Positions 39 through 32,581 are shown, counted from the first letter of the stretch. The stretch is DNA of 32,581 bases from a virus (IMGVR_UViG_3300034073_005079:1-32581), one strand, 5' to 3'. Notes: generated by a model from the sequence alone, not told the origin. Numbers and translations are program-made.

Positions 39-47
39 GTGCTACCG
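39..47 (-). promoter_or_regulatory. Variant copy of the late-operon motif (GTGCTACCG)
   Basis: This nine-mer differs by one base from GTGRTACCG, found five times in the late operon. Its flanks (CTC before, GC after) match the copies at 25350 and 27761. If the molecule is circular or cos-joined, it lies about 100 bp upstream of the terminase small subunit gene, on the right strand to be the first late control site. The reading is inferred from motif similarity and depends on the ends being joined. Confidence 0.4.
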
Positions 48-11542: not shown

Positions 11543-11555
11543 GCTGCTCGTCCCC

Positions 11556-16319: not shown

Positions 16320-16621
16320 GGCCAGCCAGCCGAGGTCACCTGCACGTGCCAGATCTGCGCCGCGTCGGCGCGTTGGTCGGCGTCGAGCCCAGACCACCAC
16401 CCAGGCCAAGTCGAAGCGAGCGCTGACGCTGCGGCCGTTTCCGACACCTTCGCGGCGGCCGCGCACGCCAAGAACGTCGACGACGACACGTCGCCGCTCT
16501 GCGCGTTCCAGTTCTTGTTGTGGTGGTGGATCCTGATCGACCATCCGAACACCAACGCGCCGCCGTTTCCGTTGTCCTGGGCATGCCATATGGTCTCCAG
16601 GTTCGTACGGGTCACTCCCAT
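16316..16621 (-). CDS. Hypothetical late protein
   Basis: The 101-aa protein has Trp- and His-rich stretches (IWHAQDNGNGGALVFGWSIR, with HHHNKNW) and a helical Ala-rich middle. A very strong GAGGAGG lies six bases before its ATG. No transmembrane segment is seen. It sits between the coiled-coil membrane protein and the holin candidate. No family is recognised. Confidence 0.6.
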   Translation of the reverse strand: MGVTRTNLETIWHAQDNGNGGALVFGWSIRIHHHNKNWNAQSGDVSSSTFLACAAAAKVSETAAASALASTWPGWWSGLDADQRADAAQIWHVQVTSAGWP

Positions 16622-16905
16622 CGTGCCTCCTCGCGCTCGAGCGCGCTGCGCGTGTCCAGAAGCCGCTTCCGCGCACCCCGCACGCTGTGCAGGTACCCGC
16701 AGGTGCAACGATCCTGCAGCGTCAGCGCCTGCTGATCAAGCACGACAAGCACCTGCTCGGTCTCGGCGCGCAGCTCGCGAAGCAACACGCGCTGGCGTAC
16801 GATCCGCCTGTGACCAAGCACAGACAAACCAAAGATCGCAGCACACGCCGCGCCTATGATCGCCCATTGAACCACCAACGTGTAAGAAATGCTTACAAGT
16901 TCCAC
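16612..16905 (-). CDS. Membrane-anchored coiled-coil protein, spanin-like candidate
   Basis: The 97-aa protein has one N-terminal membrane helix (about residues 9-30) followed by a long charged coiled coil (31-95). That is the plan of inner-membrane spanins such as Rz. Two cysteines (67, 69) lie in the middle of the coil. The GTG start at 16905 is chosen because GGAG lies five bases before. A late-motif copy (16928-16936) lies 22 bases upstream. No lipoprotein partner (o-spanin) is seen next to it; the left-end lipoprotein is unlike one. Confidence 0.55.
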   Translation of the reverse strand: MELVSISYTLVVQWAIIGAACAAIFGLSVLGHRRIVRQRVLLRELRAETEQVLVVLDQQALTLQDRCTCGYLHSVRGARKRLLDTRSALEREEARWE

Positions 16906-16922: not shown

Positions 16923-18650
16923 TCACTGTGGTACCGGAACCGCATCGGTCAGCGGCACCGACGACGAGGACCTCGCCGAAACCGACCACACGACCAGCGT
17001 GAGCGTGATCACGCCCGACACGCGCATGATCTGCCGAGCGACCTGCGCTCTCGATCCGAGCATGCCAACCTCCTCGTCGGTGACAAGCACCTGATCGCCG
17101 ACACGCAGCCAAGCGCGCTCCTGGTCGACGTCGAGGTCGACCTCGCGCCAGCCGGCCGCCAGCGCAGTCCGCCAGCTCGCCAGCGCGAGCACGGTGGCGC
17201 GGTCGTAGGTCCAAGCGACCGACAGCGACTCGTCCGCCGGACGCGGCGCCAGATCGTGAGCGCGTCGAGCCCACACGGAGGACACGACGCCCGCGTCGGG
17301 GTCCGGCTCCGGCGACATCTGCACGCTCTGGCGGTACTCTCCGGTGCTCGCGTCCACGGAGTACTCGACGTTCACCGACTTCGAGCCGGGCATCAACACG
17401 CGCACCGCGCTCGCCCGGCTGCAGTCGGACCGCACGCGCAGGTGATCCACTGCCGACGCCTCGTCCATGTCGGGGTCCCACAGAACCGGCGCGACGCCGG
17501 TGCCGGTCTGCACGAGCGACACCGGCAACGACTTCAACAGCGTGCTCACCAAGTAGTCGTACGGGCCTACGGCCTCGTCGAGGTAGGTGTCGACGCGCCA
17601 CGCGTCGAGCACGGTCCGCAGGCGCTCCCAAGCAGCCGCGTCGTACGGGATCGAGCTGCGGCGCAGCAGCCAGATCGCGACGCTGCCGACGCCGCGCAGC
17701 GCGCGAAAGTCGTCGCCGCGCAGCGCCGGGCTCTGGCTGTCGTAGTCGCCCCACACCCAAAAGAACTCCGACGCGCCCTGCACGTCGTCGGTCTCTCCTG
17801 ACAGATCGACGGTCGCGACAGCGCGACCGAGCGCGTCGTACCGGTTGACGATCGACAGCCCCTCGCGTCGGTACCAGCCGTCGGCAGTCGTCGCTCCGGT
17901 CGTCGACGGCGGCTTGTAGAGCAGCGTGCCTGTAGACGCCGCGACGTGGTGTTGAGCGATCGCCACCGTCAGCACGCGGAACTCGTCCTCTCCGCCGAAC
18001 GTCACGCTGGTCGTGCACTCGACCGCCCAGGCCGGCGAGCCCGGCGCGTTGAGGTACGCACCAAACGCCGCCGAGCGCGTGTCGTAGACGCGGTACGGAC
18101 CCGGCGCGCCGAACACAAGCGGAATCACGGCGCCTTCGTGCGAGGGCAACGGGCCCGCGGGCGAGCTGGAGGTGTCGGGCACCCACGCGTCCGTGTTCAC
18201 GTTGTGCGAGACGTCGGGCACGATCTGCGTCTCCGTGCCGGGGTCCTGCTCGATCGTCATCAGGACCGACTCGCCGTCGGCGCCGTGCTCGCCGATCGTC
18301 ATGCGACCGTTCAGCAGCACGCGCCGGCGATGCCACAGCGCGCCCTCCACTGTCCAAGCAAGCTCGGCCAAGCCGAGCAGCGGTCGACCCACGGCCACCG
18401 CAGCGGCGGCACCAGGCCAGTGCACCTCGACGGTGACCGAGATCGCCTCGGCGACGGTGTCGGAGGGAGACGCGCCGACCTCGACCTCCACCGTCGGCAG
18501 GCCGCCGTCGAACACCCACTCGGCGCCGGAGCGGTCGCTGATCACGCACGGCGACGACGAGAACCGCCACGTGCGGCCGAGCGCCTCGACCGTCAGGAGC
18601 CACAGGGCACGCGAGCCGCGCAGCTCGTCCGGGTGCAAGCTGTGGTGCAT
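16923..18650 (-). CDS. Tail protein, probable distal tail or baseplate component
   Basis: The 575-aa protein follows the large Asp-box tail protein with a four-base overlap (ATGA). Beta-rich stretches dominate (WVFDGGLPTVEVEVGASPSD, then VLLNGRMTIGEHG), with many Trp and Asp residues and a more helical middle (AAWERLRTVLDAWRVDTYLD). Position after tape measure and beside another tail protein suggests a tail-tip or hub role. No specific family is recognised. Confidence 0.6.
   Translation of the reverse strand: MHHSLHPDELRGSRALWLLTVEALGRTWRFSSSPCVISDRSGAEWVFDGGLPTVEVEVGASPSDTVAEAISVTVEVHWPGAAAAVAVGRPLLGLAELAWTVEGALWHRRRVLLNGRMTIGEHGADGESVLMTIEQDPGTETQIVPDVSHNVNTDAWVPDTSSSPAGPLPSHEGAVIPLVFGAPGPYRVYDTRSAAFGAYLNAPGSPAWAVECTTSVTFGGEDEFRVLTVAIAQHHVAASTGTLLYKPPSTTGATTADGWYRREGLSIVNRYDALGRAVATVDLSGETDDVQGASEFFWVWGDYDSQSPALRGDDFRALRGVGSVAIWLLRRSSIPYDAAAWERLRTVLDAWRVDTYLDEAVGPYDYLVSTLLKSLPVSLVQTGTGVAPVLWDPDMDEASAVDHLRVRSDCSRASAVRVLMPGSKSVNVEYSVDASTGEYRQSVQMSPEPDPDAGVVSSVWARRAHDLAPRPADESLSVAWTYDRATVLALASWRTALAAGWREVDLDVDQERAWLRVGDQVLVTDEEVGMLGSRAQVARQIMRVSGVITLTLVVWSVSARSSSSVPLTDAVPVPQ
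16928..16936 (-). promoter_or_regulatory. Late-operon motif GTGRTACCG (copy 1)
   Basis: GTGGTACCG on the plus strand (CGGTACCAC on the coding strand) is 22 bases upstream of the GTG of the coiled-coil membrane gene. It falls in the last codons of the preceding tail gene. It matches the copies at 25350, 27761, 28722 and 30644. Confidence 0.5.
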
Positions 18651-21600
18651 CAGACCTCGCCCTCGAGGCGGACCTGCATCCTGGCGACCTCGTTCTCGAG
18701 CTCGTTCCCCAGGTAGGTCTCGTACGTGACGTCGCCGACGGCGCGAGCGAGCACGTGCGTGCCGCGCCGGTTCAGCACGCGCAGTCCTTCCGCAGCTGCG
18801 AAGCGGGCGACGCGAGGCAGGTACACCACCACGCCGCCGCCGTCGTCCAGCCGACGGACCAAGCCCTCCATCTGACGCAGGGAACCACGCCGCAGGGCAA
18901 CGCCGAGCGCGCCGGACTCGGCGCTGGCTTCGATCCAGTCCGGCGACGCCGTGTCGCCGCTGACGTCGGTCTGATCGACGCCGCCGTTCGTCCAGCCGTA
19001 CTCAATGATTTCGCGGCTCGGCGCTGCCTTGTACGCGCGCCGCGTTCGGTCGCGCGCCTCGGTAATCTCGCGGCCCGGTTGCGTGGTGACCTTGCGCCCG
19101 TAGTCCGGGGTGTCCGCGTGGAACACGACCGGCCCCACCACAAGCGTGCCGATCCGCCAGTAGCTCTCGGCCGGCGCCGGCACAGTGCCGCTGGGCGTCG
19201 GAATCGTCAGCCGGAACGCGGAGTAGACCGCGCCGGCAAGGTCGACCAAGATCACGCAGGACGTGGGCAGCAGCACCCCGTCGGAGCCCGAGGACGGCTC
19301 GGACCCGGACACGTCCGCGAGCATCATCGTCGGGCGCCGACCCGCCGACCCGGACCACTTGCCCTCGGCGTTGTGGCTCACCAGACGCGTCGCTCCGTTC
19401 ATGCCGAACTGAAACGCCCAGCCAGCGCACTCTTCGAGGTGCAGCAGCGGCTCGGTGGTCGGCGTCCCGCTCGACGGACGCACCGTGTTGCCTTCCCTGG
19501 CGTACGTCAGTCCCTCCAAACCGGCGTACACCTTCGCGGTGCCCAACGACACCCAAGCCGAGGTGTCGTCGTCCCAGCCGTCGATCTCGACCTGCGTGAC
19601 GTTGGTGTTGTGCAGCGCGAACCCGATCACGTCCGACCCGAGCGAGGTGTCTCCCACCGACGACAGCTGCACCGCGAGCACCTGCTCGGCGGTCGAGCTC
19701 GACCGCCACGCCCACTGCGGCGACACCTGACCGGAGCTCGGCAGCAGCCGCGACGCCGGCCACTGGTAGCGCGTCGCGCCGGTCCACTGATCGCCGCGCA
19801 CGGCCGGTCCGCTGCGCGCGGCAAGCGCTACGCCGTCGGCCCAAGGAGTCGGCGTGGTGCCGATCGGAAACGGGTGAAGATCGTCGGGGTTCGTCGGCGC
19901 CGTGGCGAGCCCGGTACCGGCGAACTCCGCGTACGTGACGCACATCAGCCGCCACGTAGACGTTGCGGTGCCGTTCGCCCGGTGCCCCCACTGGATTCGG
20001 TTGGTGGCGAACGCCGCCGCGCCGTCCGTGAGCGTGGTCGAGCTCGGTCCCGCGATCCACTTGGATTCCGGGCTGCCGCTCTTCGCTCGGTGCCAGACCT
20101 GGCACGAGGTGCCAGCGATGCCCACGAGGAACTCGATGCCGCTGCTTGGCGCGACTCCCGTCTGCGTCGATCCGATCTGCGTTCCGGCGACGTCGTCGTA
20201 GACCCGGTAGCCAGTGGAGGCGGCACGGATCGAGATCGCGTAGCTGTTGGTGCCGTCGGCAGACACGACCTGCGCAGACACCACGTTGGTGGACACCGTT
20301 CCCGAGCTGGTGGTGAACGACAAGCGCGCAAGGATGCCCTGGGCCACAGTGCCGGACGGCGAAAGCACGTAAAACTTGGTGTCCGCCGTCGTCGTGATCG
20401 TCAGCTCGCCGCTCGTCGACAGCGCTGCTGTTCCCGCCCCCGTCGTGCTCCAGCCGGCGCTGTCCGGGAGGTCGAGCGGCACCCAGGTGTGCGCCCATCC
20501 CACCCGACGACCGGGCGCGATCCATCGCGCGTACCCGGGCCTCGTGACCGTGCTCCAGTCGCCGAGATGCCAGGCCACGAGGCTCGCCTCGTTCGCCGAC
20601 GTGCTGCTCTGCTGGAGGTTTGTCGCAAGCACGACGCGCCCGTTTGTGGGCGCTCCGGACAGGTAGTCGGGGTACACGCCCGCCACGCTCGCCGCCCACC
20701 AGCACGCCGCGTAGCTCGTGCTCGAGCTCGCGTAGAGTCCCGCCCACGTCGTGCCGTAGTCGATCGTGTACGCCGAGTGCCCCTCGGCCTGCGACGTCCG
20801 AGTCGCCGTCGGGTTCACCCAGTGTGCGTAGATCACGTCGCCGAGCTGGGTCAGCGTCGTTCCCGCCGTAGTGACGACGCCCGAGATCGCCGAACCGCCG
20901 ACCGTGCCGTACAGCGTCTCTGTGTCGATCAGGCTCGACACCAGGTCGCTGGCTGCGCCCGAGCTCGGCTCGTACGCAGAACCGAGGCGCACCCGGTACA
21001 GGCCGGCGGCTCCCGAGCCGCCGACGTACAGCAGCAAAAAGCCGGCCGGAGTCGCGATCACCGACTGCCCCGCGCCAAGCCACGTCCCCTCCGCGTCCCA
21101 CACCTCGACTTGCTGGAACGTCATGCCGAGGTCGTCGCTGGCGCACTGCAGGAGCACCGATCGAGCCGTGTGATCCGTGTCGTTGCTCTGCAACGACCCG
21201 AACAGAACGACCTGACCCAAGCTGTAAGCCGCGCGCAACCGGCCCACTCGCCACGTCGCGATTCCGGATCCAGTCGCGGACCCGTAGGTGATCGGCGTTG
21301 CCAACGCGTACTGCTGACCGACCGCCCAGGTCGCGCCGTCGTCATCGCTGTAGTGCACTCGCACAGAGGCCTGCACAAGCACGAGGTCGAACACCCAGTG
21401 GAACAGCAGCACGCGCCCCGAAGGCAGCCGGCACAACGCAGGACCGGCGATCTGGCTTGTCGGCGTAGCTGCCGACGACGAGTACACGGTCACCTCGGTC
21501 CACGCTCCGGTGCTCGCCGCCATGCTGGCGCAGCGCACTTGGTACAACGTCCCCGACGTCGTGTCGGTTGCCTCGTACGCCACCAGCACGGTTCCGTCGC

Positions 21601-21979
21601 GCAGGCCCAACGCGTCCGGAGACCGAGCCGACGTCACCGCGCTTGCGCCGTGCACCCAACGCACGGCCTCTTGCCGTTCCACCGCGTTGGGAGGGTTCCA
21701 TCCGAGGTATTCGGTGTCGCCCGCGCGCCGCCACGCCAAGCCCGCCGCCAGCGCTGGGTTGCTGCGCGCGTGACCGCCGCGCAACGCGAGCCACTCGATC
21801 TCCGAGCCCACGTCCTGCGTGCCCGTCGCCACGAGCTCCAGGTCGCCGGCGCCAGTCATGACCGGCACGCCGGCGAGCGGTCCGGCCTGGGTGTAGCTGC
21901 TCTCGTCCTCCCAGATCTCGGCGCGCTCGTCCGCGATCAGCAGCGCGCGCCAGGTCGAGCTTTTCGTGTCCTCCGCCAT
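18650..21979 (-). CDS. Large tail protein with sialidase-type Asp-box repeats
   Basis: This 1109-aa protein has at least three Asp-box (BNR) motifs: SDDDGATWA (about 211-219), SDDLGMTF (about 281-288) and IDYGTTWAG (about 406-414). Such motifs mark beta-propeller folds of sialidases and related glycan-binding proteins. They suggest that the first 450 residues form a carbohydrate-binding propeller, perhaps recognising the host surface. The remainder is beta-rich with Trp-rich segments. It lies directly after the tape measure gene, the place of tail-tip or receptor-binding proteins. Enzymatic activity is not shown: the catalytic Arg triad of sialidases was not traced. Confidence 0.7.
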   Translation of the reverse strand: MAEDTKSSTWRALLIADERAEIWEDESSYTQAGPLAGVPVMTGAGDLELVATGTQDVGSEIEWLALRGGHARSNPALAAGLAWRRAGDTEYLGWNPPNAVERQEAVRWVHGASAVTSARSPDALGLRDGTVLVAYEATDTTSGTLYQVRCASMAASTGAWTEVTVYSSSAATPTSQIAGPALCRLPSGRVLLFHWVFDLVLVQASVRVHYSDDDGATWAVGQQYALATPITYGSATGSGIATWRVGRLRAAYSLGQVVLFGSLQSNDTDHTARSVLLQCASDDLGMTFQQVEVWDAEGTWLGAGQSVIATPAGFLLLYVGGSGAAGLYRVRLGSAYEPSSGAASDLVSSLIDTETLYGTVGGSAISGVVTTAGTTLTQLGDVIYAHWVNPTATRTSQAEGHSAYTIDYGTTWAGLYASSSTSYAACWWAASVAGVYPDYLSGAPTNGRVVLATNLQQSSTSANEASLVAWHLGDWSTVTRPGYARWIAPGRRVGWAHTWVPLDLPDSAGWSTTGAGTAALSTSGELTITTTADTKFYVLSPSGTVAQGILARLSFTTSSGTVSTNVVSAQVVSADGTNSYAISIRAASTGYRVYDDVAGTQIGSTQTGVAPSSGIEFLVGIAGTSCQVWHRAKSGSPESKWIAGPSSTTLTDGAAAFATNRIQWGHRANGTATSTWRLMCVTYAEFAGTGLATAPTNPDDLHPFPIGTTPTPWADGVALAARSGPAVRGDQWTGATRYQWPASRLLPSSGQVSPQWAWRSSSTAEQVLAVQLSSVGDTSLGSDVIGFALHNTNVTQVEIDGWDDDTSAWVSLGTAKVYAGLEGLTYAREGNTVRPSSGTPTTEPLLHLEECAGWAFQFGMNGATRLVSHNAEGKWSGSAGRRPTMMLADVSGSEPSSGSDGVLLPTSCVILVDLAGAVYSAFRLTIPTPSGTVPAPAESYWRIGTLVVGPVVFHADTPDYGRKVTTQPGREITEARDRTRRAYKAAPSREIIEYGWTNGGVDQTDVSGDTASPDWIEASAESGALGVALRRGSLRQMEGLVRRLDDGGGVVVYLPRVARFAAAEGLRVLNRRGTHVLARAVGDVTYETYLGNELENEVARMQVRLEGEV

Positions 21980-23833
21980 CTACCGCCTCCGCCGTTGGCC
22001 TTGTCGGGGCGTTCCCGCGAGCTCGCGCAGCGCCGACCCTGGGCGACGTCCGCGATCGGCCATCACGCGATCCAGCGTGCGCCCTGCGTGCACCAGATCG
22101 ATCTGCAGCGGCGCGTCGCTGCCGGGCATTCCGACGTTGAGCCGTCCGAGTCCAGAGGGTCCACCTACGGCACGCACGCCTGCAGGCGTCAGCACGCCCT
22201 CGCCGTCGCGCACCATCGTGAGGCCTTCGTCGGGCGTGCGCACGCCCGAGCGCACGCCGCCACCGTGCAGCACGGGGGGCGGCGCCGTCGCGATCGCGGT
22301 CGCGTTGGCGACGCCGGCGGCGCCGGCGGCCGCTGCCGCTGCGATGCCTACCGGGCTCGGCGGCGGGCCGAACATCGCGAAGCCCTTCGAGATCGCCGCT
22401 ACGGTGTCAATCCCGACCTGCGCGAGGCCTGCGGCCTGGCTCGTGCGGAACGCCGCGAGCGCGGCCTTCTTGTTGAGCGCGCCGCTGGAGGCGAGCGCTG
22501 AACCCAGCGCAGCCACCGATCCGGCGAGATCGCTCGCGACCCCGACCGCGGCGTCGACCGACGCAGTGCGCATCTGCTGGGCCCAGCTAAGGAACTCGGT
22601 GACGGTTGCCTTAAGCGAGGCCGATGTGCTCGCCGCCGATTCCATCACAGCGCGCTCGGTGTCGGCCTGGGCGAGCGCCCACGCATCGGCTGCCGCTGCC
22701 GCCTCTCGCTCCGAGCGAGAGAACAGCGCGCTCTTCGCCTCGGCCACCGCCGAAACGATCTCTCCGTTCTCGGAGTACTTGGCGCCGATCGCGTCAAGCA
22801 ACGCCAGCTCCGTCTCGTACGGCTGCACGATGTCGGCGCTCACCTTGGTCTGCACGCCGAGCACCTGCTCGAGGGCCCGTGCGCGCTCGGCGAGGGCCTC
22901 GGCAAGCTCGCGCTCGCGCTTCGACTGCCCGGCCGTGTCCGCCTTCCCGTAGGTCCCCTGCATCTTCGCGAGGCCCTCGGCGAGCGCCCGCGCAGGCATG
23001 GCCGCGCCCTTGAGGCTCTTGGCGACGCCGTCGTAGCCCTGGGCGAGCTCCCGCCCAGCCGCCGCGTTCTTGATGGCTAGGGGCAAGACCTCGTCCATGC
23101 GGTCGGCCATCTCCGCCATCGGCCACAACCCGCCCGTGACGGCGCCTTTGAGGATGTCGAGCGCGGTCGCCTCGTCCGACACCACTTCCGCGAACGCGGA
23201 CACCACCGACACGCCGAGCGCGAAGTCGCTGATCAGCTGACCGGCCGCGCTCGCCACCTTGAGGATCACCGGCTCCAGGTTCAGCATCGTGTGCGTGAGC
23301 ACCTCGACGCCGTCGGAGCTTGCGAGCGCGAACGCCTCTTGCGCCCGCAACGAAACCGCCGACAGCCGGTCAATGCTGTCGCTGGCTGCGCCGAGCTTCT
23401 CGAGCTGTGCCGCGGTGAGCGCCGACCGCACGCCCAGCGCGTCGAGCTGCGCTTCCGTTTCCTCGATGCCGCCGATCGCAGAGAAGGCGGCCATGAGCCC
23501 GCCGACGGCGCCGCCGACGGACACCAGGCCTGCGACAGCCACTGCCGCGCCTCCGACGCCAAGCCCGCCGAGCGCGGCGCCCACGTCCTCGATGTCGCCG
23601 ACGACGCCGCCGAACATCACCGTGCCGGCCTTCTTGACCCCTTCCAAAGCTTGCTCGCCGTCGCGGCCCGCGCCAAGAAACGCCGAACGCAAGCTCTTGG
23701 CGCTGCTGTCGCCCAGCCGCTTCATCTCGGCAACGCTCTTCGAAGCGATCCGCTTGACCTTGTCGAGCAGCTTGTCGAACTCGGAGTCGGTCTCCGACAG
23801 ATCGGCTCCGAGCGTGACGATGTTGTCAGCCAT
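21980..23833 (-). CDS. Tail tape measure protein
   Basis: The 617-aa protein is mainly helical, with an N-terminal coiled region (EFDKLLDKVKRIASKS) and a Gly/Ala-rich hydrophobic stretch (about 88-118). The C-terminal segment has LHGGGVRSGVRTPDEG and RDGEGVLTPAGVRAVGG, a signature common in tape measure proteins. It sets tail length and occupies the tail tube before release with the DNA. By the usual 1.5 angstrom per residue, the tail would be about 90 nm. It follows the tail chaperone region. Its TAG is immediately followed by the next ATG. Confidence 0.9.
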   Translation of the reverse strand: MADNIVTLGADLSETDSEFDKLLDKVKRIASKSVAEMKRLGDSSAKSLRSAFLGAGRDGEQALEGVKKAGTVMFGGVVGDIEDVGAALGGLGVGGAAVAVAGLVSVGGAVGGLMAAFSAIGGIEETEAQLDALGVRSALTAAQLEKLGAASDSIDRLSAVSLRAQEAFALASSDGVEVLTHTMLNLEPVILKVASAAGQLISDFALGVSVVSAFAEVVSDEATALDILKGAVTGGLWPMAEMADRMDEVLPLAIKNAAAGRELAQGYDGVAKSLKGAAMPARALAEGLAKMQGTYGKADTAGQSKRERELAEALAERARALEQVLGVQTKVSADIVQPYETELALLDAIGAKYSENGEIVSAVAEAKSALFSRSEREAAAAADAWALAQADTERAVMESAASTSASLKATVTEFLSWAQQMRTASVDAAVGVASDLAGSVAALGSALASSGALNKKAALAAFRTSQAAGLAQVGIDTVAAISKGFAMFGPPPSPVGIAAAAAAGAAGVANATAIATAPPPVLHGGGVRSGVRTPDEGLTMVRDGEGVLTPAGVRAVGGPSGLGRLNVGMPGSDAPLQIDLVHAGRTLDRVMADRGRRPGSALRELAGTPRQGQRRRR

Positions 23834-24236
23834 GCCGCAGCCTCTGCTTGATGATCGCGTTCAGCCCGTCCACAAGCGACCGCGCCCAGTTGCCGCGGGT
23901 CGCACTCACGCGCGCTGCCAACTCGGCAGCGGGCGCGCGCCGAGCCACCTGCGCAGACCGCCGATCGCCGGTCTTGGTGCTTTCGATCTCCAACGCGTAG
24001 TCCGTGCTCGTGATCACCGCGGCCACGGCGTGGTCGTTGTGCGTCACGTGCGCCGCCAGCGCGTCACGCGACGCGCCCGAAGCCACCGGCCACGTCCGCC
24101 GCGCCTCCGCCACGAACGCCTCGGCGATCGCTGTCACCTTCGGCGCGAGCTCGCCGGTGGCGCCGCGCGTAGGACCCGGTTCGGCGATCGGGCCTCGGAT
24201 GGTGACTCGAGCGCGTCCGCTTGTCGCTCTGATCAT
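23826..24236 (-). CDS. Head-tail or minor tail component, HK97 gp10-like possible
   Basis: The 136-aa protein has a helical middle with FVAEARRTWPVASGASRDAL, a pattern resembling HK97 gp10-like tail-completion proteins, and a basic C-terminus. It lies between the tail chaperone frames and the tape measure gene, overlapping both neighbours by a few bases. Most long-tailed phages have no gene in this slot. The family link is tentative. Confidence 0.5.
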   Translation of the reverse strand: MIRATSGRARVTIRGPIAEPGPTRGATGELAPKVTAIAEAFVAEARRTWPVASGASRDALAAHVTHNDHAVAAVITSTDYALEIESTKTGDRRSAQVARRAPAAELAARVSATRGNWARSLVDGLNAIIKQRLRHG

Positions 24237-24438
24237 CGTCCTATCACCCTCGGCTTCTTCGGCTTCTTGGCTTCTGCCGCCTTCTTCGCTTCCGCAACCT
24301 TCGCTTCCTCAATGACGTCCTGCTCGCTGTAGGCGTACCACCAGCCGAGAAGCCGTCGCTGATCGCTCTCGTCGAGGTCCCACCATCCGCCCAGGCCGAG
24401 CTTCCACAGCCTTTCGATCTCGAGGATCGCAAAGTCTA
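24233..24438 (-). CDS. Tail assembly chaperone extension (T), made by -1 frameshift
   Basis: About 67 residues of clearly protein-like sequence follow the chaperone gene (IERLWKLGLGGWWDLDESDQ, then a Lys/Ala-rich tail), but the frame has no ATG, GTG or usable TTG start. Its frame is -1 relative to the gene at 24436-24810 and is open across the overlap. This is the G/G-T arrangement of long-tailed phages. No perfect slippery heptamer is visible; the nearest is CCCGAAG on the coding strand (24487-24481). A strong AGGAGGA lies about ten bases before the G stop and may stimulate slipping. Confidence 0.65.
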
Positions 24439-24810
24439 CGGTGCGCTGTCCTCCTGGGCGGACGTAGGGTCCGCCTCCGCCTTCGGGTCCACCACCCCGG
24501 GAAGTCCCGAGTCGAACAAGTGGTCGATGCAGGCGCAACCGACCTCGACGATCTGCTGGCGCATCACGCCGCGCTCGATGAGCTCGTCCCCGACCTGTCC
24601 GCCGAACGCGGCGATGTCGCCGCCGTACCGGGCTCGCAGCTGGTCTCGCCCCGGCGGCCAACACAGGCCGATTGCCGCCGCGCCCAGTCGGACTCGAACG
24701 TTGCCGTCCGCCGTTCGCGCAGCGTCCGCGAGTTCGAGCCGCGCCACCGCACTCCGCGGGAGCCGAAGCTGCCACGTATTCGAACCGATCACCAAGAGGG
24801 GCATCGACAT
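24436..24810 (-). CDS. Tail assembly chaperone (G)
   Basis: The 124-aa protein lies directly after the tail tube gene (ATGA overlap), where the G chaperone of long-tailed phages is found. It is mixed alpha/beta with RYGGDIAAFGGQVGDELIER. It probably holds the tape measure in shape during tail assembly, as G and the frameshift product GT do in lambda. The identity rests on position and the -1 frame relation to the next segment. The C-terminal acidic tail is poorly conserved in such proteins. Confidence 0.65.
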   Translation of the reverse strand: MSMPLLVIGSNTWQLRLPRSAVARLELADAARTADGNVRVRLGAAAIGLCWPPGRDQLRARYGGDIAAFGGQVGDELIERGVMRQQIVEVGCACIDHLFDSGLPGVVDPKAEADPTSAQEDSAP

Positions 24811-25328
24811 CAGCTCGGCCCCGTCCGGGTCACCGCGCCGTAGCAGATGTACGACAACGTGTACATGTCGAGCTCGCCCTCGACCCAGTCGAGCGAGATC
24901 ACGCAGTCCTCAAGCAGGATGACGTGGTCGGCGCCGTCTCCGTGACTTGTGCCCTCGACCGTGATCTCGAGGTCCAGCGTCTTGCGGCTTGCATTGGCGC
25001 CCAGGGTCGACACGTTCGCCGAGTAGGCGCCCGAGAACAGCACGAAGTCGGCCAAGTTCCCCGCGGACGCGTTGGTGAACTCGGTCATGCGAGCGGTCAG
25101 CGTGCCCGACGGAAACACCCGATCGCCCGAGCGCAGCCCGTCGAAGCGACCGCGCGTCACGATCACGACGTCCTCGTTCATCTCTCCGGTGATCGTGTCG
25201 ATCGCCCGCAGGCCCTGCAGGCTTGTGTCGCCGATCGACGAGGGCACGGTCAGCGTTACCGGCGTTCCGGATCCGTCCTTGAGCTTGACCGAGCCGTCGT
25301 GACTGGTCTTTTTCACCGTCGAAGCCAT
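24810..25328 (-). CDS. Major tail tube protein
   Basis: The 172-aa protein is beta-rich throughout (GTPVTLTVPSSIGDTSLQGL, then VIVTRGRFDGLRSGDRVFP and TLDLEITVEGTSHGDGADHV). This is the pattern of tail tube proteins, which stack as hexamer rings. It is encoded between a terminator-like gene and the tail chaperone. A GGAGGG ribosome site lies eight bases before its ATG, and a late motif copy lies upstream, as expected for a protein made in large amounts. Confidence 0.8.
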   Translation of the reverse strand: MASTVKKTSHDGSVKLKDGSGTPVTLTVPSSIGDTSLQGLRAIDTITGEMNEDVVIVTRGRFDGLRSGDRVFPSGTLTARMTEFTNASAGNLADFVLFSGAYSANVSTLGANASRKTLDLEITVEGTSHGDGADHVILLEDCVISLDWVEGELDMYTLSYICYGAVTRTGPS

Positions 25329-25349
25329 CTACGAGCCCTCCGTCGACTC

Positions 25350-25358
25350 GTGATACCG
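25350..25358 (-). promoter_or_regulatory. Late-operon motif GTGRTACCG (copy 2)
   Basis: GTGATACCG is in the 47-base gap before the tail tube gene, 21 bases upstream of its ATG. The context GACTC-motif-GCCCC matches the copy at 27761. Confidence 0.55.
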
Positions 25359-25375
25359 GCCCCTACGCGCTCACC

Positions 25376-25828
25376 TTACGGAGCGACCAGCGCGAACCGG
25401 TGTTCGATCACCATGTCGATCGCGATCAGCAGCCAGCGCCCGTCGGGCGACACCGACCGAGCAATCGGGAAGGGCGCCAGAATCCGCAAGTAATTGGGGT
25501 CCAGCGCCAGCATGCCCTGCAACACGCTGTGCTCGAGGTCAAGCGCGGCATCGTAGCTTGAGCGGGCCGCGTCTCCCTTTACCTGGTGCGCCATCCGCAC
25601 CCGAAACGTCGAGCGCGCCGCGCCCTCCGTCGGCGGCGGTCCTCGACCTCGGGTGTCCCAGCTCTGCACGGACGAGGCAGGCGCGGAGACCGAAAAGCCG
25701 CGGTGCAGTGTGCTCGACGGGTCTAGACCGAACGCTTCGGGGACCCACGTTGACTCGACCAGGCCGAGCGCCACCAGCGATGCGCTGATCCGTCCGCGCA
25801 CCTCGGCGACCGTGAGCGCCGCGCTCAA
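25376..25828 (-). CDS. Tail terminator or tail-completion protein (probable)
   Basis: The 150-aa protein starts at a TTG overlapping the upstream stop (TTGA). It has an N-terminal helix (VAEVRGRISASLVALGLVES) and a beta-rich rest (STFRVRMAHQVKG, RWLLIAIDMVIEHRFAL). Position just before the tail tube gene is typical for the terminator that caps the tail. No specific family is recognised, and the ribosome site is weak, so translation may depend on coupling. Confidence 0.55.
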   Translation of the reverse strand: MSAALTVAEVRGRISASLVALGLVESTWVPEAFGLDPSSTLHRGFSVSAPASSVQSWDTRGRGPPPTEGAARSTFRVRMAHQVKGDAARSSYDAALDLEHSVLQGMLALDPNYLRILAPFPIARSVSPDGRWLLIAIDMVIEHRFALVAP

Positions 25829-26556
25829 TCGGCACCGCAGAGGAACACGAGCGGCGCTACCTTCTGACGAGCTGCGTTGGCTGGCGCGCCGTCGTCGCTC
25901 GGATCGTACACGAACGACAAGCGGCCCCACTCGCGCTCGTAGGCTGCGTAGAAGTCCACCGCGATCTGACGGTACGCCTCGTTCAGCCGCTGCCCGAAGT
26001 CCTCGTAGATCATCCCCAGCGTCAGCTCGATCTCGACTTGCCGCAGCGCGCTGGCGCTGATGATGAGGTGCGGGCGCCGACTGTCCTGCAGCAAGCGCGT
26101 CTGAATGGTAGCAAACGCCTCGTCGATCTTGTCCTGAAACGTCGTCTCGGAGTGAATGCAGTGCGCACGAGAGGGGTCGAGCGAGCTCGCCCGGCGGTAC
26201 AAGTCGACGTCGGTGATCACCGGCGCCAACGTCACTCGCGCGAGCGCGGCGTCGTTCTGAAACACGCGCTCGACCCCGGCGATCGTCAATACCCACTCGA
26301 CACGCCAGCCCAGCGACCGCTGCAACGTGGATGGCGGCGTGTACGTGTACGACGCCGTGCCCGGCAGCCCCGTGAGCGTCGCCGTGACGACCACCGCGCC
26401 CGAACGGTCGTAGATGGTGATCGTGCCGGCCGACGCCTGCACCACCGCGCCGGACGCCCAAAGCGGGCACGTCAGCGTGTTCGGGCGCCCGCGCTCAAGG
26501 ACATCGGGCCCAAGGAACCGAGCGGTCACGTGCGTGCTGGCAGACCCCGCGCCCAC
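25825..26556 (-). CDS. Head-tail connector or neck protein (probable)
   Basis: The 243-aa protein has a beta-rich N-terminal half (TLTCPLWASGAVVQASAGTI, resembling an Ig-like domain). Its helical C-terminal half has FATIQTRLLQDSRRPHLIIS and RLNEAYRQIAVDFYAAYEREW. It lies between capsid-linked genes and the tail terminator, the place of neck proteins that seal the portal. GTG start directly after the upstream stop. The function is inferred from gene order. Confidence 0.55.
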   Translation of the reverse strand: MGAGSASTHVTARFLGPDVLERGRPNTLTCPLWASGAVVQASAGTITIYDRSGAVVVTATLTGLPGTASYTYTPPSTLQRSLGWRVEWVLTIAGVERVFQNDAALARVTLAPVITDVDLYRRASSLDPSRAHCIHSETTFQDKIDEAFATIQTRLLQDSRRPHLIISASALRQVEIELTLGMIYEDFGQRLNEAYRQIAVDFYAAYEREWGRLSFVYDPSDDGAPANAARQKVAPLVFLCGAD

Positions 26557-26910
26557 TCACAGCCACGCGTAGACGACGAACTTCTCGCCGGACGTCACCG
26601 TGACCACGACGTTCGTGCTGGTGTGCGTGCCCTCGGCGACGTCGTACGCACCGCCGGTGAGCTCGGTCGGCACGATCATCACCAGTGTGGGCGTCGCCGA
26701 CAGGCCGTGCGCAACGTTCTGGGCGGAGCCCGTGCCGGTCTGCTCGGTGCTCTTGAAGCGGCCCGCCGTCGCCAGCGCCGCGGCTCGCCCGTCCTGGATG
26801 AGGCACCCGTCGACCGTGACCCCGGCGCCGGACGTTGACTCGACGATCGTGTCCGTTTGCACGCCCAGGATCTTGAGCCAGCGCGACGCGATCTTGAACC
26901 AGTAGTTCAT
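26557..26910 (-). CDS. Small structural protein with fibre-like motif
   Basis: The 117-aa protein contains VTVDGCLIQDGRA (about residues 31-43), a motif often seen in phage fibre or decoration proteins. It ends in a compact beta domain (NVAHGLSATPTLVMIVPTEL, then VVVTVTSGEKFVVYAW). It could be a head decoration protein or fibre. GAGG lies before its ATG. Function inferred from this motif and its place among head genes. Confidence 0.5.
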   Translation of the reverse strand: MNYWFKIASRWLKILGVQTDTIVESTSGAGVTVDGCLIQDGRAAALATAGRFKSTEQTGTGSAQNVAHGLSATPTLVMIVPTELTGGAYDVAEGTHTSTNVVVTVTSGEKFVVYAWL

Positions 26911-26913
26911 GTG

Positions 26914-27063
26914 CTACCTCTTTCCCTGCTTTCGCAGGTCCCGATCGACGCGGATCATCGACTCGCGCGCCTTCTGTTGTGCCACGGAGGGCTTCACCCC
27001 GGACGCGACAAGGTCACGCGTGACGCGGTCCATGGCTGCACGGTCGCCGTCGCGCTCACCCAT
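26914..27063 (-). CDS. 49-residue late protein
   Basis: This short, highly charged helical protein begins MGERDGDRAAMDRVTRDLVA and ends KQGKR. Its ATG overlaps the end of the upstream gene, and its TAG is three bases before the next ATG, leaving no gap. It fills exactly the space between two structural genes, which argues it is real. Its role is unknown. Small helical, charged proteins in this position can be connectors or scaffold-like. Confidence 0.6.
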   Translation of the reverse strand: MGERDGDRAAMDRVTRDLVASGVKPSVAQQKARESMIRVDRDLRKQGKR

Positions 27064-27745
27064 TGTCGGCCCCCGCCGGCGTCCGCGGGCCCCTCTTCTT
27101 CTTCGCGTTCTCGCGCTCGGCCTTGCAGGCCTTCAGCGCTGCCTCGAGCACCTCGACCTCGGCCTTGAGCTGCGCCTCGCGCTCGACCGAACGCCCCGCG
27201 CCCTGGTTCTTGGCCGCGACGATCGCGGCTCGCCCCTGGCGCAGGCGCGCCTCCTCCAACATGCGCTCGATGACGTCGATCGGGCACGGCGTGAGCTTTC
27301 CGCTCTTGACGAGCCCTTCGAGCCACTCGGCGTAGCCCGTTTCGTCCGACACCGTCTGCGAGGCTCCCACAGGGGCCTCCTCCCACACGGAGATCCAGGC
27401 CTCCTTCACGTCCGCGCGCCCGCCCGGACGCGTGTCCACCGAATCGAGGTAGCTCTCGCCGTCCGGAGCCCAGCTGTACGGGATGATCGAGCGCCCCTCG
27501 GTCTCCAAGCGAGCTCGGTAGGACGCCAAACGCACGGCGCCCTTTCGGTCGATCGAGATCTGGTTGACCCCATCCGCCAACGGCTGGCGCGACAGCGAAG
27601 GCACCAGCTTCCCCGCGAGCACCATCCATCGACGAGGATGGAACACAAGCACGTACGGAGGCGTCTCCTCGATGTGCGGATGGCTCTGTCCGGTCGCGTT
27701 CGTCGCGAAATTCGGAACCCTCGATGCTCCAATCGCCTTCGCCAT
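27056..27745 (-). CDS. Late protein with C-terminal coiled coil
   Basis: The 229-aa protein has a mixed N-terminal domain (YVLVFHPRRWMVLAGKLVPS, then WAPDGESYLDSVDTRPGG). A long helical Lys/Glu-rich C-terminal part follows (QLKAEVEVLEAALKACKAER). The ATG at 27745 follows GGAGAGG; ten upstream codons were discarded. It lies directly after the major capsid gene. No family is recognised. It may be a minor head or connector-associated protein. Confidence 0.6.
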   Translation of the reverse strand: MAKAIGASRVPNFATNATGQSHPHIEETPPYVLVFHPRRWMVLAGKLVPSLSRQPLADGVNQISIDRKGAVRLASYRARLETEGRSIIPYSWAPDGESYLDSVDTRPGGRADVKEAWISVWEEAPVGASQTVSDETGYAEWLEGLVKSGKLTPCPIDVIERMLEEARLRQGRAAIVAAKNQGAGRSVEREAQLKAEVEVLEAALKACKAERENAKKKRGPRTPAGADNG

Positions 27746-27760
27746 GTGCCCTCTCCGCTC

Positions 27761-27784
27761 GTGGTACCGGCCCAACGCCGGTAC
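27761..27784 (-). promoter_or_regulatory. Late-operon motif GTGRTACCG (copy 3) with inverted repeat
   Basis: GTGGTACCG at 27761-27769, 15 bases before the ATG at 27745, is followed by a perfect inverted repeat GTACCGGC-CCAAC-GCCGGTAC (27764-27784). The repeat extends the motif to both strands. No T-run follows on the coding strand, so it is not a simple terminator. Confidence 0.6.
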
Positions 27785-27788
27785 CGGG

Positions 27789-28694
27789 TCAAGCGTCGGT
27801 CTTGAGCGTCACGCCGCAGCTGTCGATCGCCTTCGCAACGCCGGCGTGGTGGCTGTAGACGTACGACGTCGCCACGAACTGGCCCTGCCGCACGCGCTCG
27901 AGGCGGGCGGTGCCGAGGTCGACGATGTTCGGATCGTTCTCGGCAGGCATCTGCGCGTCCGCCCACGCCATGCCACCGCGACCGAACACGCATCCGGCCC
28001 GGTTGGCCCCCGAATCCGCAGTCGGCACCCCCGACGACACGAAGAAGTCAATGCCGGCGTACCGGCCCTTGTACAGATCGGTGCCGACTCCGATCAGCTT
28101 GCCGAACTCGAGGGCCGGCGCGAATCCGAGCGAGAACGTGTCCACCTCGAGATCGCCCCACTGGCGCGGATGCAGCAGCGCAACCAACGGACCGGCCACC
28201 TTGGCGATCGACAACAACGTCTTCGCGTCGATGATGTCGGTCCAAGCCGCATCCACTCCCGAGGACCCCGCCGTCGTGGTGAAGTCGTCGCCGACGTTCG
28301 CGAGCAGGTTGATCACCGTGTTCCCGACCGACAGGTACAGATCCTGCGCGAGCAGCGCAGGATCAACCTTCCCTCCGATGAGGAAGCGCGCCAGATCGTC
28401 GAAGTTGTATCGCTTGGCCCGCGTGGCGATCGTCACGTCCGTGCTGCCGTCCGCGAGAACGGTGTTTGCGACCTCGCTGCCCGGAGTCGTCGCGGACAGC
28501 GTGTCGTAGCCGCCCAAGCCGATGTGCGGCACGCGCACGACGTTCGAGGTGTTGTTGAGCGCGGTCGCTCGCAACAGCGCCGGATGCGCCAGGAAGGACA
28601 GGTCCCGCTCGGCGTTCAGCAACAAGTACTCGGCCGCGAGCACCTCACCTGCGATCAGGTCTCCGATTCCGGATGGGACGATCTCGTTCGCCAT
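27789..28694 (-). CDS. Major capsid protein
   Basis: The 301-aa protein has the layout of HK97-like capsid proteins without a long N-terminal delta domain: an N-terminal arm, a mixed alpha/beta body (VRVPHIGLGGYDTL, LVALLHPRQWGDLEVDTFSL) and a C-terminal segment with RVRQGQFVATSYVYSHHAGV and AKAIDSCGV. It follows the scaffold gene. AGGAG lies before the ATG and a late motif copy upstream, in keeping with high expression. The fold assignment is from gene order and pattern. Confidence 0.85.
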   Translation of the reverse strand: MANEIVPSGIGDLIAGEVLAAEYLLLNAERDLSFLAHPALLRATALNNTSNVVRVPHIGLGGYDTLSATTPGSEVANTVLADGSTDVTIATRAKRYNFDDLARFLIGGKVDPALLAQDLYLSVGNTVINLLANVGDDFTTTAGSSGVDAAWTDIIDAKTLLSIAKVAGPLVALLHPRQWGDLEVDTFSLGFAPALEFGKLIGVGTDLYKGRYAGIDFFVSSGVPTADSGANRAGCVFGRGGMAWADAQMPAENDPNIVDLGTARLERVRQGQFVATSYVYSHHAGVAKAIDSCGVTLKTDA

Positions 28695-28721
28695 GATGCG
28701 CTCCTGTCTGTTGGCTGCCCG

Positions 28722-28730
28722 GTGATACCG
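28722..28730 (-). promoter_or_regulatory. Late-operon motif GTGRTACCG (copy 4)
   Basis: GTGATACCG in the 48-base gap before the major capsid gene, 27 bases upstream of its ATG. Flanks are more diverged than in the other copies (CCG before, ACGCCC after). Confidence 0.5.
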
Positions 28731-28742
28731 ACGCCCAAACGA

Positions 28743-29282
28743 TCAGCTGCGCCGCGCCGCCACCGACGGCACCAACAACTTGCGGGCTTCGCGGTAGGCG
28801 CTCCAATCGCCGGTCCGCTGCGCCTCCATGCGCATGCGCCGCACGTCCGCGTCCGTAAGCTCGCTGCCGACCGCCGGCGGCCCGCCGGCCCCGCCCACAG
28901 CGCGCGGAGGCGGAGGCGGTGGCGCAGCCGGCGGCGGCGGAGGCGCGGACGCGGGCGCCGCCAACCAAGGACGCAGAAGCGCGGGCGCGGCGTCCGGAGC
29001 TGCCTTGAGGCCCGCTACCCAAGCCTCTCGAGTGGGGCGCCCCTCGGCTGGCAGACCTTCGTACCGCGCATCGAATGCGCCGAGCACGTCGGCGTCCAGC
29101 GTCCCAAGCGCCTTCCCAAACTCCCGCGTTGCGGCGAGCTGCCGCTCGGCGGCTGCTGCGCGTGCCAGCGCTGCGTCGTGCTCCGCCTGCGAAACTCCGA
29201 CGGGCGCAGGATCTTTCGGCGCTACAGGCGCCGGCTCGGGTGGCGCAGGTGGCGCTCCCTGGTTCGCATTTCCGTCCTCCAT
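28743..29282 (-). CDS. Capsid scaffold protein
   Basis: The 179-aa protein is acidic and Pro/Ala-rich at the start, has a coiled-coil stretch (SQAEHDAALARAAAAERQLA), long proline runs, and a helical C-terminus (ADVRRMRMEAQRTGDWSAYR). Low complexity, helical middle and position between portal and major capsid are the usual marks of a phage scaffold. GGGAGG lies seven bases before its ATG, just after the portal stop. Confidence 0.8.
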   Translation of the reverse strand: MEDGNANQGAPPAPPEPAPVAPKDPAPVGVSQAEHDAALARAAAAERQLAATREFGKALGTLDADVLGAFDARYEGLPAEGRPTREAWVAGLKAAPDAAPALLRPWLAAPASAPPPPPAAPPPPPPRAVGGAGGPPAVGSELTDADVRRMRMEAQRTGDWSAYREARKLLVPSVAARRS

Positions 29283-29285
29283 CCG

Positions 29286-30638
29286 TCAACCTCCCATCGC
29301 CGCGATGGCGGCCGTTGCCTCGATGTCCGACATCGCCGGGTGCAGCACTTGGTAGGCCTCCACCTTCGTCATCAGGCCTGCATCGACCAGGGCCACCAGC
29401 CGCTGCGCCTCTGCGGTCATTTCGCTCGCGTCGCGTCCGACGGCCTTGTACTGAATCCTCCAAGGCGCGGCCGTCAGGCCCATGAGTCCCGCCGTCAGCT
29501 GACAGAGCCGTCGGTCACTGCGCCCGAACACGGGCGCGTACGCAAGCTGCGCCTCGCGCTGCTGTTCGCGCGACACCGCGAGGCTCATCGCCGAGCGCAC
29601 GTCGCTCTCCCGGCGCGAGACTCCGACCTGCGACAGCGCCATCTCCACCAGCCGCCGCTCGTACCGCTCGATCGACGCCAGCACAACGTCGGGCGAGATC
29701 GGCGGCGCAAACTGCCCCACCGACCCGGGCGCCGCGTCGTCGCTGTTCTCGAGCGCAAGCATGGTCGCCGGGTCCGTCACGATCGCGCGCGTGCGGCCCT
29801 CCTCGTCGACCTCGCCACCTGCGGGACGGACGTTGATGCCGTACCTCTGCGACCATGCCGCGTTTCGAAGGATGTGCCCGAAGAACGAATAGTACACGCC
29901 GAGCTGCAGCGTCCCTTCGAAGACCTCCGCGCCCGTATACGGATCAAGCGCCAGCCCAGATTCCGCGGCGTGGTACGCCACGTACGGCAGCACCGGGACT
30001 CCATCGATTGCCCACGGGTATCGCTCTCCCGTGAAGTCGCCGCCAAGCACCCGCCTGGACACGTCGACGCCGCTTGTGTCGAACGCTCGGTACACCCGGT
30101 CCTGCGGCCGCACGTGCAAGCACACCCACTTCGTCGCGTCGTCCGGGTCCGCGATCCACTCGCGCACCGCCGTAGGCTGCTGCGGCCGCAGCGGATGCCA
30201 GTCGACCTCGTACAGGTCGGGCCAGCAGAGTCGATACGACGGTACGCCTGCGTCCAGATCGACCCGCACAAGCGAGTCGTTCAACCCGATCGTGTCCCGC
30301 TGCACACGCTGGGCGAGCTCCCAGTAACCAGCCTCCGTCATCGCCGCGGCGGCGTCCTCTGCCCCATCGGGCGGGTCAAGCTCGGGGATCTGTCGATACA
30401 GCGCGGCGAGCTGCGACGTCACGTACCACGCGGGGTTGCTGGTCATGTCCACCAGCCGCCAAGCGGCTGCGCGACTTCGACCGACCGCCTCTTGAATCCG
30501 CAGCTCGACGTCGCTTTGATGCAAACTGTATAGGATTCTTCGACGCAATCGCGAATGTTGCACGCGTGCCATCGCCTCCGCTCCGTTGGGCAGCGGCGGC
30601 ACGGACATCTGGGCTCGCATCGTCGAGGTCTGGATCAT
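29286..30638 (-). CDS. Portal protein
   Basis: The 450-aa protein lies between terminase large subunit and scaffold and has a portal-like plan. It has helical stems and a beta-rich wing (WVCLHVRPQDRVYRAFDTSG, then SFFGHILRNAAWSQRYGINV) and a C-terminal helical region with SLAVSREQQREAQLAYAPVF. It forms the ring through which DNA is packaged. The ATG at 30638 has only a weak AAGG close to it; internal ATGs at 30620 and 30608 are alternatives. The motif copy at 30644 is only five bases before 30638, which favours a later start if the motif is a promoter element. Confidence 0.85.
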   Translation of the reverse strand: MIQTSTMRAQMSVPPLPNGAEAMARVQHSRLRRRILYSLHQSDVELRIQEAVGRSRAAAWRLVDMTSNPAWYVTSQLAALYRQIPELDPPDGAEDAAAAMTEAGYWELAQRVQRDTIGLNDSLVRVDLDAGVPSYRLCWPDLYEVDWHPLRPQQPTAVREWIADPDDATKWVCLHVRPQDRVYRAFDTSGVDVSRRVLGGDFTGERYPWAIDGVPVLPYVAYHAAESGLALDPYTGAEVFEGTLQLGVYYSFFGHILRNAAWSQRYGINVRPAGGEVDEEGRTRAIVTDPATMLALENSDDAAPGSVGQFAPPISPDVVLASIERYERRLVEMALSQVGVSRRESDVRSAMSLAVSREQQREAQLAYAPVFGRSDRRLCQLTAGLMGLTAAPWRIQYKAVGRDASEMTAEAQRLVALVDAGLMTKVEAYQVLHPAMSDIEATAAIAAMGG

Positions 30639-30643
30639 GCCTT

Positions 30644-30652
30644 GTGGTACCG
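30644..30652 (-). promoter_or_regulatory. Late-operon motif GTGRTACCG (copy 5)
   Basis: GTGGTACCG lies in the 21-base gap between terminase and portal genes. It is only five bases before the annotated portal start, unlike the other copies (15-27 bases). Confidence 0.5.
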
Positions 30653-30659: not shown

Positions 30660-32087
30660 TCACCCAAACTGGAGCACAGCGTCGTCCGTGAACTTCTTGG
30701 AGCTCCACACCGGCACCGGTCCGTACATGAGCGCGTCGAGCACGTCCTTTCGCTCGTGATTGTCGCTGTAGTCCCACAGGCCGAGCGCCTCGATCACCTC
30801 CACGCACCTCGGATGGATGCGAACTCGGTCGGCCGCCATCACGCCGTACAGCCAGCGTGACCGCACGTCCTTCGTTCGACGCCTGGCGCCGCTTGACGCC
30901 GTGCCCTCTTTCGCGTTCTGAATTCGCGGCAGCAGCCCCGCCGACGTCGTCTTGAGTGCCAGCGCAAGCGCCTTGGCGAGCTCGACGTTCGAGCTTGTCG
31001 CGTGCCTCGACCGCGCTGCGATGTCGCCGTAGACGTAGCTTAGGTCTCTCCAGGTCAGCCCCAAATCGCCCAGCATCCGCAAGATGCCGCGCGCAAAGTC
31101 CGTCATGCTCGTCGAGCCGACGACCACGTGTTCGCCGAGCACGTACCAAGCGTCCAGGGCCGGATCATGCCCGACAAGCACCGCGCAGAGTCCTCGCTCG
31201 CGGTCCGCTGCGGCGTAGTCGAGCCCGAGGTACCACGTCAGCTCCGCCGTCGGCAGCCGATCGGACACGTGCCGGTTTCGATCAAAACAACGGAAGAACT
31301 GCCCTTCAACGCGACTCTCCCACTCCCCGTCAAGCCGAATGGGCGCGATGATCGGGTTGGTCTTCCGACGCTCCTCCGCAATGAAGGCCTCATCCCAGAG
31401 CCGTCCGTCCTTCGTCCTGCGAGGTCGACCGGTCAGCGGCGAGATCTGCAGCCTCGCCTCCAGCCGGAAGTGGTAGTCCCGGATCAACCCCTGCTCACAT
31501 TTCGCGCGCAGCCACGGCAGCGGCGGACCGTTGATCGGCGTGAGCGTCAGCCCGATCGTGCCGCCCGTGTTCAGCACGCGCTTCTCCATCTCGTCGAAAA
31601 CGTCCTCGGGCAGCGGCTCGTCGCCAAGAATGTGATCGAACTCGGAACCTGCCAGCGCATCGGCCCCCTGGCCGGACGTGAAGATCGAGATCGAAGACCC
31701 GTTCTTGAACTCGACCATCGGCTTGTGCCCGCGAAACCCCGTGCGCGCCGAGAAGTCGCACCGCACCAGGTCCTGGCTGTTTCGGCCGCCGAGCAAGTCG
31801 AAGAGAACACGTTGGATCTCGACGCTCTGCGCCTTCTTCATGTTGATCATGGCGAGCCGAACCGGCGCACGCGGCACGGGCTTGAACGGGTGACGTCCCC
31901 GAGCGCGCCAGATGAGGTCGGCCGCGCCTGCGGTCGTCTTCCCCTGTCGGTTGCCCAAGCGAAGCAGCGACGGGCGCGGTTCGACGTGCGACAGCCAGGC
32001 GATCTGATGCGGCAGCCACGGCACGCAATCGACCGGGCTCTGCTTGCTGGCCAGGATCAGCCGCCGCGCGGAGGTTCCTGCGCTCAT
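30660..32087 (-). CDS. terL: Terminase large subunit
   Basis: The 475-aa packaging motor and nuclease has a Walker A, GNRQGKTT (45-52), and a Walker B with ILGDE (Asp156, Glu157). The nuclease domain shows LGLDYAAAD (Asp290) and a late KDVLDAL acidic motif. It drives ATP-dependent DNA packaging and cuts the concatemer. The ATG at 32087 overlaps the small subunit stop (ATGA). A six-codon longer frame was discarded. Confidence 0.93.
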   Translation of the reverse strand: MSAGTSARRLILASKQSPVDCVPWLPHQIAWLSHVEPRPSLLRLGNRQGKTTAGAADLIWRARGRHPFKPVPRAPVRLAMINMKKAQSVEIQRVLFDLLGGRNSQDLVRCDFSARTGFRGHKPMVEFKNGSSISIFTSGQGADALAGSEFDHILGDEPLPEDVFDEMEKRVLNTGGTIGLTLTPINGPPLPWLRAKCEQGLIRDYHFRLEARLQISPLTGRPRRTKDGRLWDEAFIAEERRKTNPIIAPIRLDGEWESRVEGQFFRCFDRNRHVSDRLPTAELTWYLGLDYAAADRERGLCAVLVGHDPALDAWYVLGEHVVVGSTSMTDFARGILRMLGDLGLTWRDLSYVYGDIAARSRHATSSNVELAKALALALKTTSAGLLPRIQNAKEGTASSGARRRTKDVRSRWLYGVMAADRVRIHPRCVEVIEALGLWDYSDNHERKDVLDALMYGPVPVWSSKKFTDDAVLQFG

Positions 32088-32524: not shown

Positions 32525-32544
32525 GCGCCGCCTGGGATGGGCTG

Positions 32545-32576
32545 TTTTTTTTCGCCTGGCGCGCGCGCGCTAGGCG
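32545..32576. repeat. T-run and GC-only hairpin at the right end
   Basis: T8 (32545-32552) is followed by CGCCT (32553-32557), an alternating GC run of 12 bases (32559-32570) and AGGCG (32572-32576). The 24-base inverted repeat is perfect apart from one G-T position. On the coding strand of the late operon the hairpin precedes an A-run, so it is not a terminator for that strand. The T7CGCCT part also occurs at 17-28. A terminase recognition or cos region is plausible. Confidence 0.45.
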
Positions 32577-32581
32577 TGGAA

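Follow-up and report, generated by a model that had tools for sequence, protein, structure and literature searches.

Genome organisation and a repeated element in the late operon

The window, that is, the whole stretch of DNA analysed, is an entire linear virus record of 32,581 bases, in which the head, tail and lysis genes form an operon on the minus (late) strand (Table 1). Gaps in this operon were mapped using a seeded gene call to which the scaffold ORF was added by hand, and five late junctions exceed 15 nt. The portal gene is preceded by 21 nt, the capsid gene by 48, the 229-aa gene by 43, the tail-tube gene by 47 and the spanin-like gene by 17. The original prediction held that a nine-base motif, GTGRTACCG, recurs in the gaps of this operon, and an exact search of both strands bears this out, with five copies in 32.6 kb against 0.20 expected, a number attained by none of 100 shuffles of the window; as had also been claimed, there are no further exact copies. 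All five match on the + strand and read CGGTAYCAC on the late strand, in one orientation throughout. Nor are these chance-level copies spread through coding regions: each lies on the late strand upstream of a late gene, and a single copy serves each of the five junctions. The fifth copy is indeed present ahead of the spanin-like gene, at 16928 and 22 nt before its GTG, but it sits within the last codons of the preceding 575-aa ORF, which ends at 16923, and outside the 17-nt gap.

Table 1. Genes and predicted promoter elements in the window
Feature	Position	Strand	Basis or remark
CGGTAGCAC, relatives' form of element	39..47	-	left end, pointing outward
Putative phage sigma (173 aa, sigma-70 region 2 alone), which may read the element	15226..15747	+	Pfam Sigma70_r2, 27.5 bits (cut-off 24)
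Spanin-like 97-aa gene	16612..16905	-	seeded gene call
CGGTACCAC, predicted late -10 element	16928..16936	-	in last codons of 575-aa gene; 22 nt before spanin-like GTG (16905)
Tail-tube-like protein	24810..25328	-	gene call; relative in L006 at 8026-8520
CGGTATCAC, predicted late -10 element	25350..25358	-	21 nt before tail-tube gene (25328)
49-aa gene	26914..27063	-	seeded gene call; homologues in G001, G003, G028
229-aa protein	27056..27745	-	seeded gene call
CGGTACCAC, predicted late -10 element	27761..27769	-	15 nt before 229-aa gene (27745)
Major capsid protein	27789..28694	-	by position
CGGTATCAC, predicted late -10 element	28722..28730	-	27 nt before capsid ATG (28694)
Scaffold-like gene	28743..29282	-	position
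Portal	29286..30638	-	by position and relatives
CGGTACCAC, predicted late -10 element	30644..30652	-	5 nt before portal ATG (30638); leaderless mRNA predicted
Large terminase	30660..32105	-	Pfam Terminase_6N, phrog_2
Small terminase (terS), first late gene	32084..32524	-	by position

Five regions, each consisting of a gap plus the 20 nt upstream of it, were compared for shared words. CGGTAYCAC was the sole 9-mer with one two-fold position common to all five; the maximum sharing was three regions in 1500 simulated sets and four in 1500 sets of random window stretches. One-mismatch copies occur near chance (15 versus 10.5 expected), and the copy at 39-47 to which the original prediction had drawn attention is not significant alone; it becomes credible because its sequence, CGGTAGCAC, is a major form in the relatives described below. 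Divergent from this site, at the left genome end, lies a lipoprotein-like gene (134-505, + strand), possibly a cargo gene.

Two apparent motif-free gaps were rejected. The 145 bases at 26911-27055 contain most of the 49-aa gene (26914-27063), which has a homologue in relatives, and 24237-24435 falls within an overlapping-frame ORF ending at 24233. This second frame overlaps a 124-aa ORF (24436-24810), an arrangement resembling frameshift-made tail assembly chaperones.

The element recurs before homologous genes of related viruses

A capsid scan yielded ten related contigs and an alignment scan 28 viral loci with the capsid or a relative of it; searches of 50,697 phage records found no relatives of the terminase, the capsid or the sigma protein. 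As to a host, a single genome was hit, a proteobacterial metagenome assembly with a 61% capsid relative, and the element is missing there. A gap search in G003 revealed CGGTAGAAC, and the pattern CGGTANNAC then proved to precede the portal and capsid genes, the following gene, tail and further genes in G003, G028, G026, G032 and L009/L010, whose capsids are 62-67% identical to that of the window. Late-strand copies before homologous genes number four in G003, seven in G028, seven in G032, six in G026 and four in L010, the last with one more in coding sequence; CGGTAGCAC is the common form in G026 and G032. The motif is not confined to this phage, as CGGTAGMAC or a close variant stands ahead of the same genes in no fewer than four related uncultured genomes, although an exact search shows the window motif itself to be missing from the late gaps of the relatives.

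The CGGTANNAC pattern was chosen after inspection of G003; the ranking of gap words within each genome is independent of that choice and recovers the element de novo in G003, G028 and G032. We also built leave-one-genome-out matrices, which are independent of the pattern only in part, their training sites having been gathered with it. The top 4 of 43,534 positions in G003, the top 6 of 45,164 in G028 and the top 7 of 35,442 in G032 were all upstream of late starts. On the late strand, overlap of matches with non-coding DNA far exceeds expectation; on the opposite strand there is none. When trained on the relatives and run on the window, the matrix ranked the true sites less cleanly, an antisense coding match scoring highest, because the window copies are mostly CGGTAYCAC with a C before them and not the relatives' TCGGTAGMAC. 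The window is the most deviant member of the motif-bearing group.

The distribution has irregularities. In G003 and G028 the element is missing from some gaps, and G010 has two or three plausible sites. The more diverged G036 carries CGGTACGAT/CGGTATGAT plus CGGTACRGT in gaps before late genes, variants whose sequence is nearer to a classical -10 box than is the main-group element. Gap words of G001 and G030 were considered as alternative motifs and rejected, being mostly words adjoining the start codon and no equivalent of the element. An extended form, GGGCCGGTAYCACGAG, occurs among all viral contigs in 14, one copy each with few or no further CGGTAYCAC, which we judged to be chance; three of these 14 were tested and showed no sigma region 2.

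Two further observations concern the surroundings of the capsid gene. In the scaffold-capsid gap of L006, L011, L055, L057 and L062 there is an unexplained second conserved stretch, approximately CCACGTCACGGGC / CCACGACACGGGC, which is distinct from the -10-like element. In G036 (L080), the capsid gene is followed at 4992-5113 by a hairpin and T run resembling a terminator (CCCCGCCCCCGTGGCGGGGTTTTTC), which would fit separate transcription units.

The element resembles an extended -10 box without a -35 partner

Aligned, the sites show the conserved columns CGGTA..AC, preceded by T in 22 of 32 sites. Since the search pattern dictated seven of these letters, their conservation is not evidence, and the informative columns are the flanks and the middle bases. 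The upstream columns contain no conserved block that could represent a -35 partner, information being confined to the element and the preceding base. Placed at -15 to -7, CGGTANNAC reads as an extended -10 box, CG-G-TAnnAC as against TGnTATAAT. A T at the final -10 position (-7) is typical of sigma-70 boxes, and C is unusual there.

The distance from element to start codon spans 5 to over 100 nt and, in the called sites, is either 5-6 nt or at least 15 nt, with none at 7-14. In the longer class a ribosome site lies between element and start. All six sites of the shorter class lack a Shine-Dalgarno (SD) sequence, which is partly forced, since the element itself occupies the position of the ribosome site; they are mostly homologous portal genes, comprising portal in five genomes (the window, at 5 nt, and G003, G028, L010 and G026) and one lipoprotein-like gene of G032. 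If transcription starts 6-8 nt downstream of the element, as in phiEco32, a site 5-6 nt before the ATG with no SD leads us to predict that the portal mRNA is leaderless.

We found no shared RNA fold at the sites. The z-scores of the five window sites run from +1.8 to -2.9, and only 27761 folds unusually well. That site is overlapped by a perfect 9-bp inverted repeat, GGTACCGGC-GTTGG-GCCGGTACC, at 27761-27790, a hairpin absent from the other sites. A likeness of GGTAGA to a tRNA D-arm was likewise dismissed, as ARAGORN finds no tRNA in the window.

The phage encodes a predicted sigma factor with region 2 and no detectable region 4

The window sigma gene shares a rightward operon with genes for a 3'-5' exonuclease and an Erf-like protein. 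Homologues are present in all three of the longest motif-bearing relatives (G003 18384-18869, G028rc 18402-18872 and G032 15371-15745) and in the diverged G036 (27829-28338). The homologues of G003, G028 and G032 come after the tail genes, on the late strand; that of G036 is outside the late operon. Four of the five family members match Pfam Sigma70_r2 at E up to 1, and none of the five has a Pfam match to region 4. The G032 homologue has only 124 aa, and the window protein has a further C-terminal part beyond region 2. An AlphaFold model of the window protein has modest scores (pLDDT 76, pTM 0.49); its core is helical and region-2-like, the helices at residues 22-92 are confident and the C-terminal part is weaker. 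Sigma factors lead the PDB list in a Foldseek search with this model, at E-values that are not significant. Scanning viral contigs with the window sigma sequence found nothing, and with the five-sequence alignment only the already known G028, the homologues having come from the records of the capsid relatives.

Among the longer contigs, four (the window, G003, G028 and G032) have both the sigma gene and CGGTANNAC gap sites, and four have neither (G001, G030, G039 and G041, the motif scan of G039 and G041 covering ~15 kb around the capsid gene). Two contigs are mixed: no sigma was found in the 20.7 kb of G010, which has some sites, and G036 has the sigma with the variant element. Counting these two as exceptions, the association is not significant alone, and absence of the sigma is weak evidence because most contigs are incomplete. 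It is motif type, placement and partner taken together that make the case.

Discussion

The sequence of the element, its positions, its conservation and the sigma homology, all directly observed, lead us to infer promoter activity, reading by this sigma and late timing: very probably, CGGTAYCAC is the -10 of late promoters with a single element, which a minimal sigma encoded by the phage itself would read. Such a region-2 protein, together with the host core polymerase, would recognise the element without a -35 box, and RNA would start ~6-8 nt downstream of it. Within the head-tail-lysis operon this would create internal starts before portal, capsid, the 229-aa gene, tail tube and the spanin-like gene, and site 39 would probably drive terS after circularisation, across the joined genome ends. 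Of the three roles that the original prediction had offered, namely promoter, processing site and regulator site, our comparison gives good support to the late promoter, given the same placement in relatives, the extended -10 likeness, the lack of a -35 box and of a shared RNA structure, and the phage sigma region 2.

The element might instead be a -10 box read by a housekeeping or alternative sigma of the host, the phage protein serving otherwise. We consider this unlikely, even though CGNTANNNT without a -35 is an ordinary -10 form in some GC-rich bacteria (PMC3898074) and G010 has sites with no sigma gene detected, since the sites are restricted to late genes, a sigma homologue is found in every sufficiently long motif-bearing contig except G010, and the main-group element ends in C where sigma-70 has T, a C that is fixed by the search pattern but that the de novo searches also give. 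A parallel that we count in favour of the main reading comes from Mycobacterium tuberculosis, in whose promoters a -10 TANNNT is often preceded by CGN without a -35 (PMC3898074). The phage element likewise has CGG before TANNN and no -35, and leaderless starts are common in that bacterium (PMC3898074); it differs in having C for the final T, in the restriction of its copies to late genes of the phage and in its link with a sigma that the phage encodes.

It is very improbable that the copies are binding sites at which a phage repressor blocks transcription in the lysogen. Like L5-type stoperators they are short, asymmetric, aligned with transcription and placed in small gaps (PMC9283540), and the genome encodes an integrase and four HTH proteins. 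Stoperators of that type, however, are found genome-wide, including early promoters, whereas all five exact sites here are late and -10-like, with none in the early region; a non-systematic search of the relatives identified no conserved repressor, and repression would leave unexplained the -10 likeness, the constant distance of 5-6 nt at portal and the T-ending form in G036. Slightly less probable still is action at the RNA level, as a processing site or translation aid. The copies do lie on the coding strand close upstream of start codons, and in this they recall the start-associated sequences of cluster K phages, short repeats in one orientation upstream of starts (PMC3203893). Those sequences read GGGATAGGAGCCC, unlike the present element, which has a sigma partner and stands at a variable distance from the start; that variation, the lack of a shared fold with only 27761 folding unusually well, and the lack of a tRNA-like gene all speak against such a role.

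Returning to reading by the phage sigma, two systems are close in function. The phiEco32 promoters, read by a sigma without region 4, consist of one element, transcription starting 6-8 bp downstream of it (PMC8948821), and our case resembles gp36 of that phage in the absence of region 4, the single near -10 element without a -35 and its several late-gene copies (PMC8948821). It differs in sequence, the phiEco32 middle and late promoters having tAATGTAtA in place of the GC-rich CGGTANNAC, and in its small genome with an integrase and a portal site 5-6 nt before the ATG. Common descent with gp36 found no support, tblastn of the window sigma against the 50,697 phage records, assumed to include phiEco32, returning nothing at E up to 1. 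T4 gp55 is a sigma-family protein with similarity in domain 2 only, acting without a -35 on one box that precedes the start by about one helical turn (PMC2988020). The likeness to our case again lies in a region-2-only sigma-family protein and a single element lacking a -35, although T4 late promoters use an 8-bp TATA box, a co-activator and the sliding clamp, and CGGTANNAC is no TATA box. The window thus shows the sequence features of this functional class (region 2, no region 4, one element without a -35), and our best reading is that it works like the gp36 and gp55 systems and, by sequence, is assigned to neither.

We further lean, with some reserve, towards a lineage, not described so far, of small phages infecting GC-rich uncultured bacteria, with their own region-2-only sigma, which can be as small as 124 aa, together with GC-rich single-element late promoters, the two having co-diverged (AC-ending versus T-ending elements), and with a leaderless portal mRNA. 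To our knowledge, minimal sigma factors working without a -35 box come from few phages, of the T4 and phiEco32 types; if the proposal is true, this would be a further and apparently separate case, in small GC-rich genomes. For phages seen only in metagenomes it would provide a testable late-gene switch comprising a sigma and the DNA that it probably targets, each with natural variants, of use in asking how little of a sigma suffices and how base -7 is read, and in building compact orthogonal promoters. The element also helps to annotate late genes and start codons in related phages.

Genome ends and lifestyle

Six contigs (the window, G003, G010rc, G001, G036 and G028rc) have one end ~56-81 nt upstream of terS, an indication that the genome has a fixed physical end of the cos type. 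GGCGAAAAAAA lies near both ends of the window (32524-32581 and 1-47). The phage is probably temperate, as its tyrosine integrase (2677-3789) adjoins a C5 cytosine DNA methylase (3986-5572). Four XRE-type HTH regulator genes are clustered at 10366-11876, between the early and the rightward operons.
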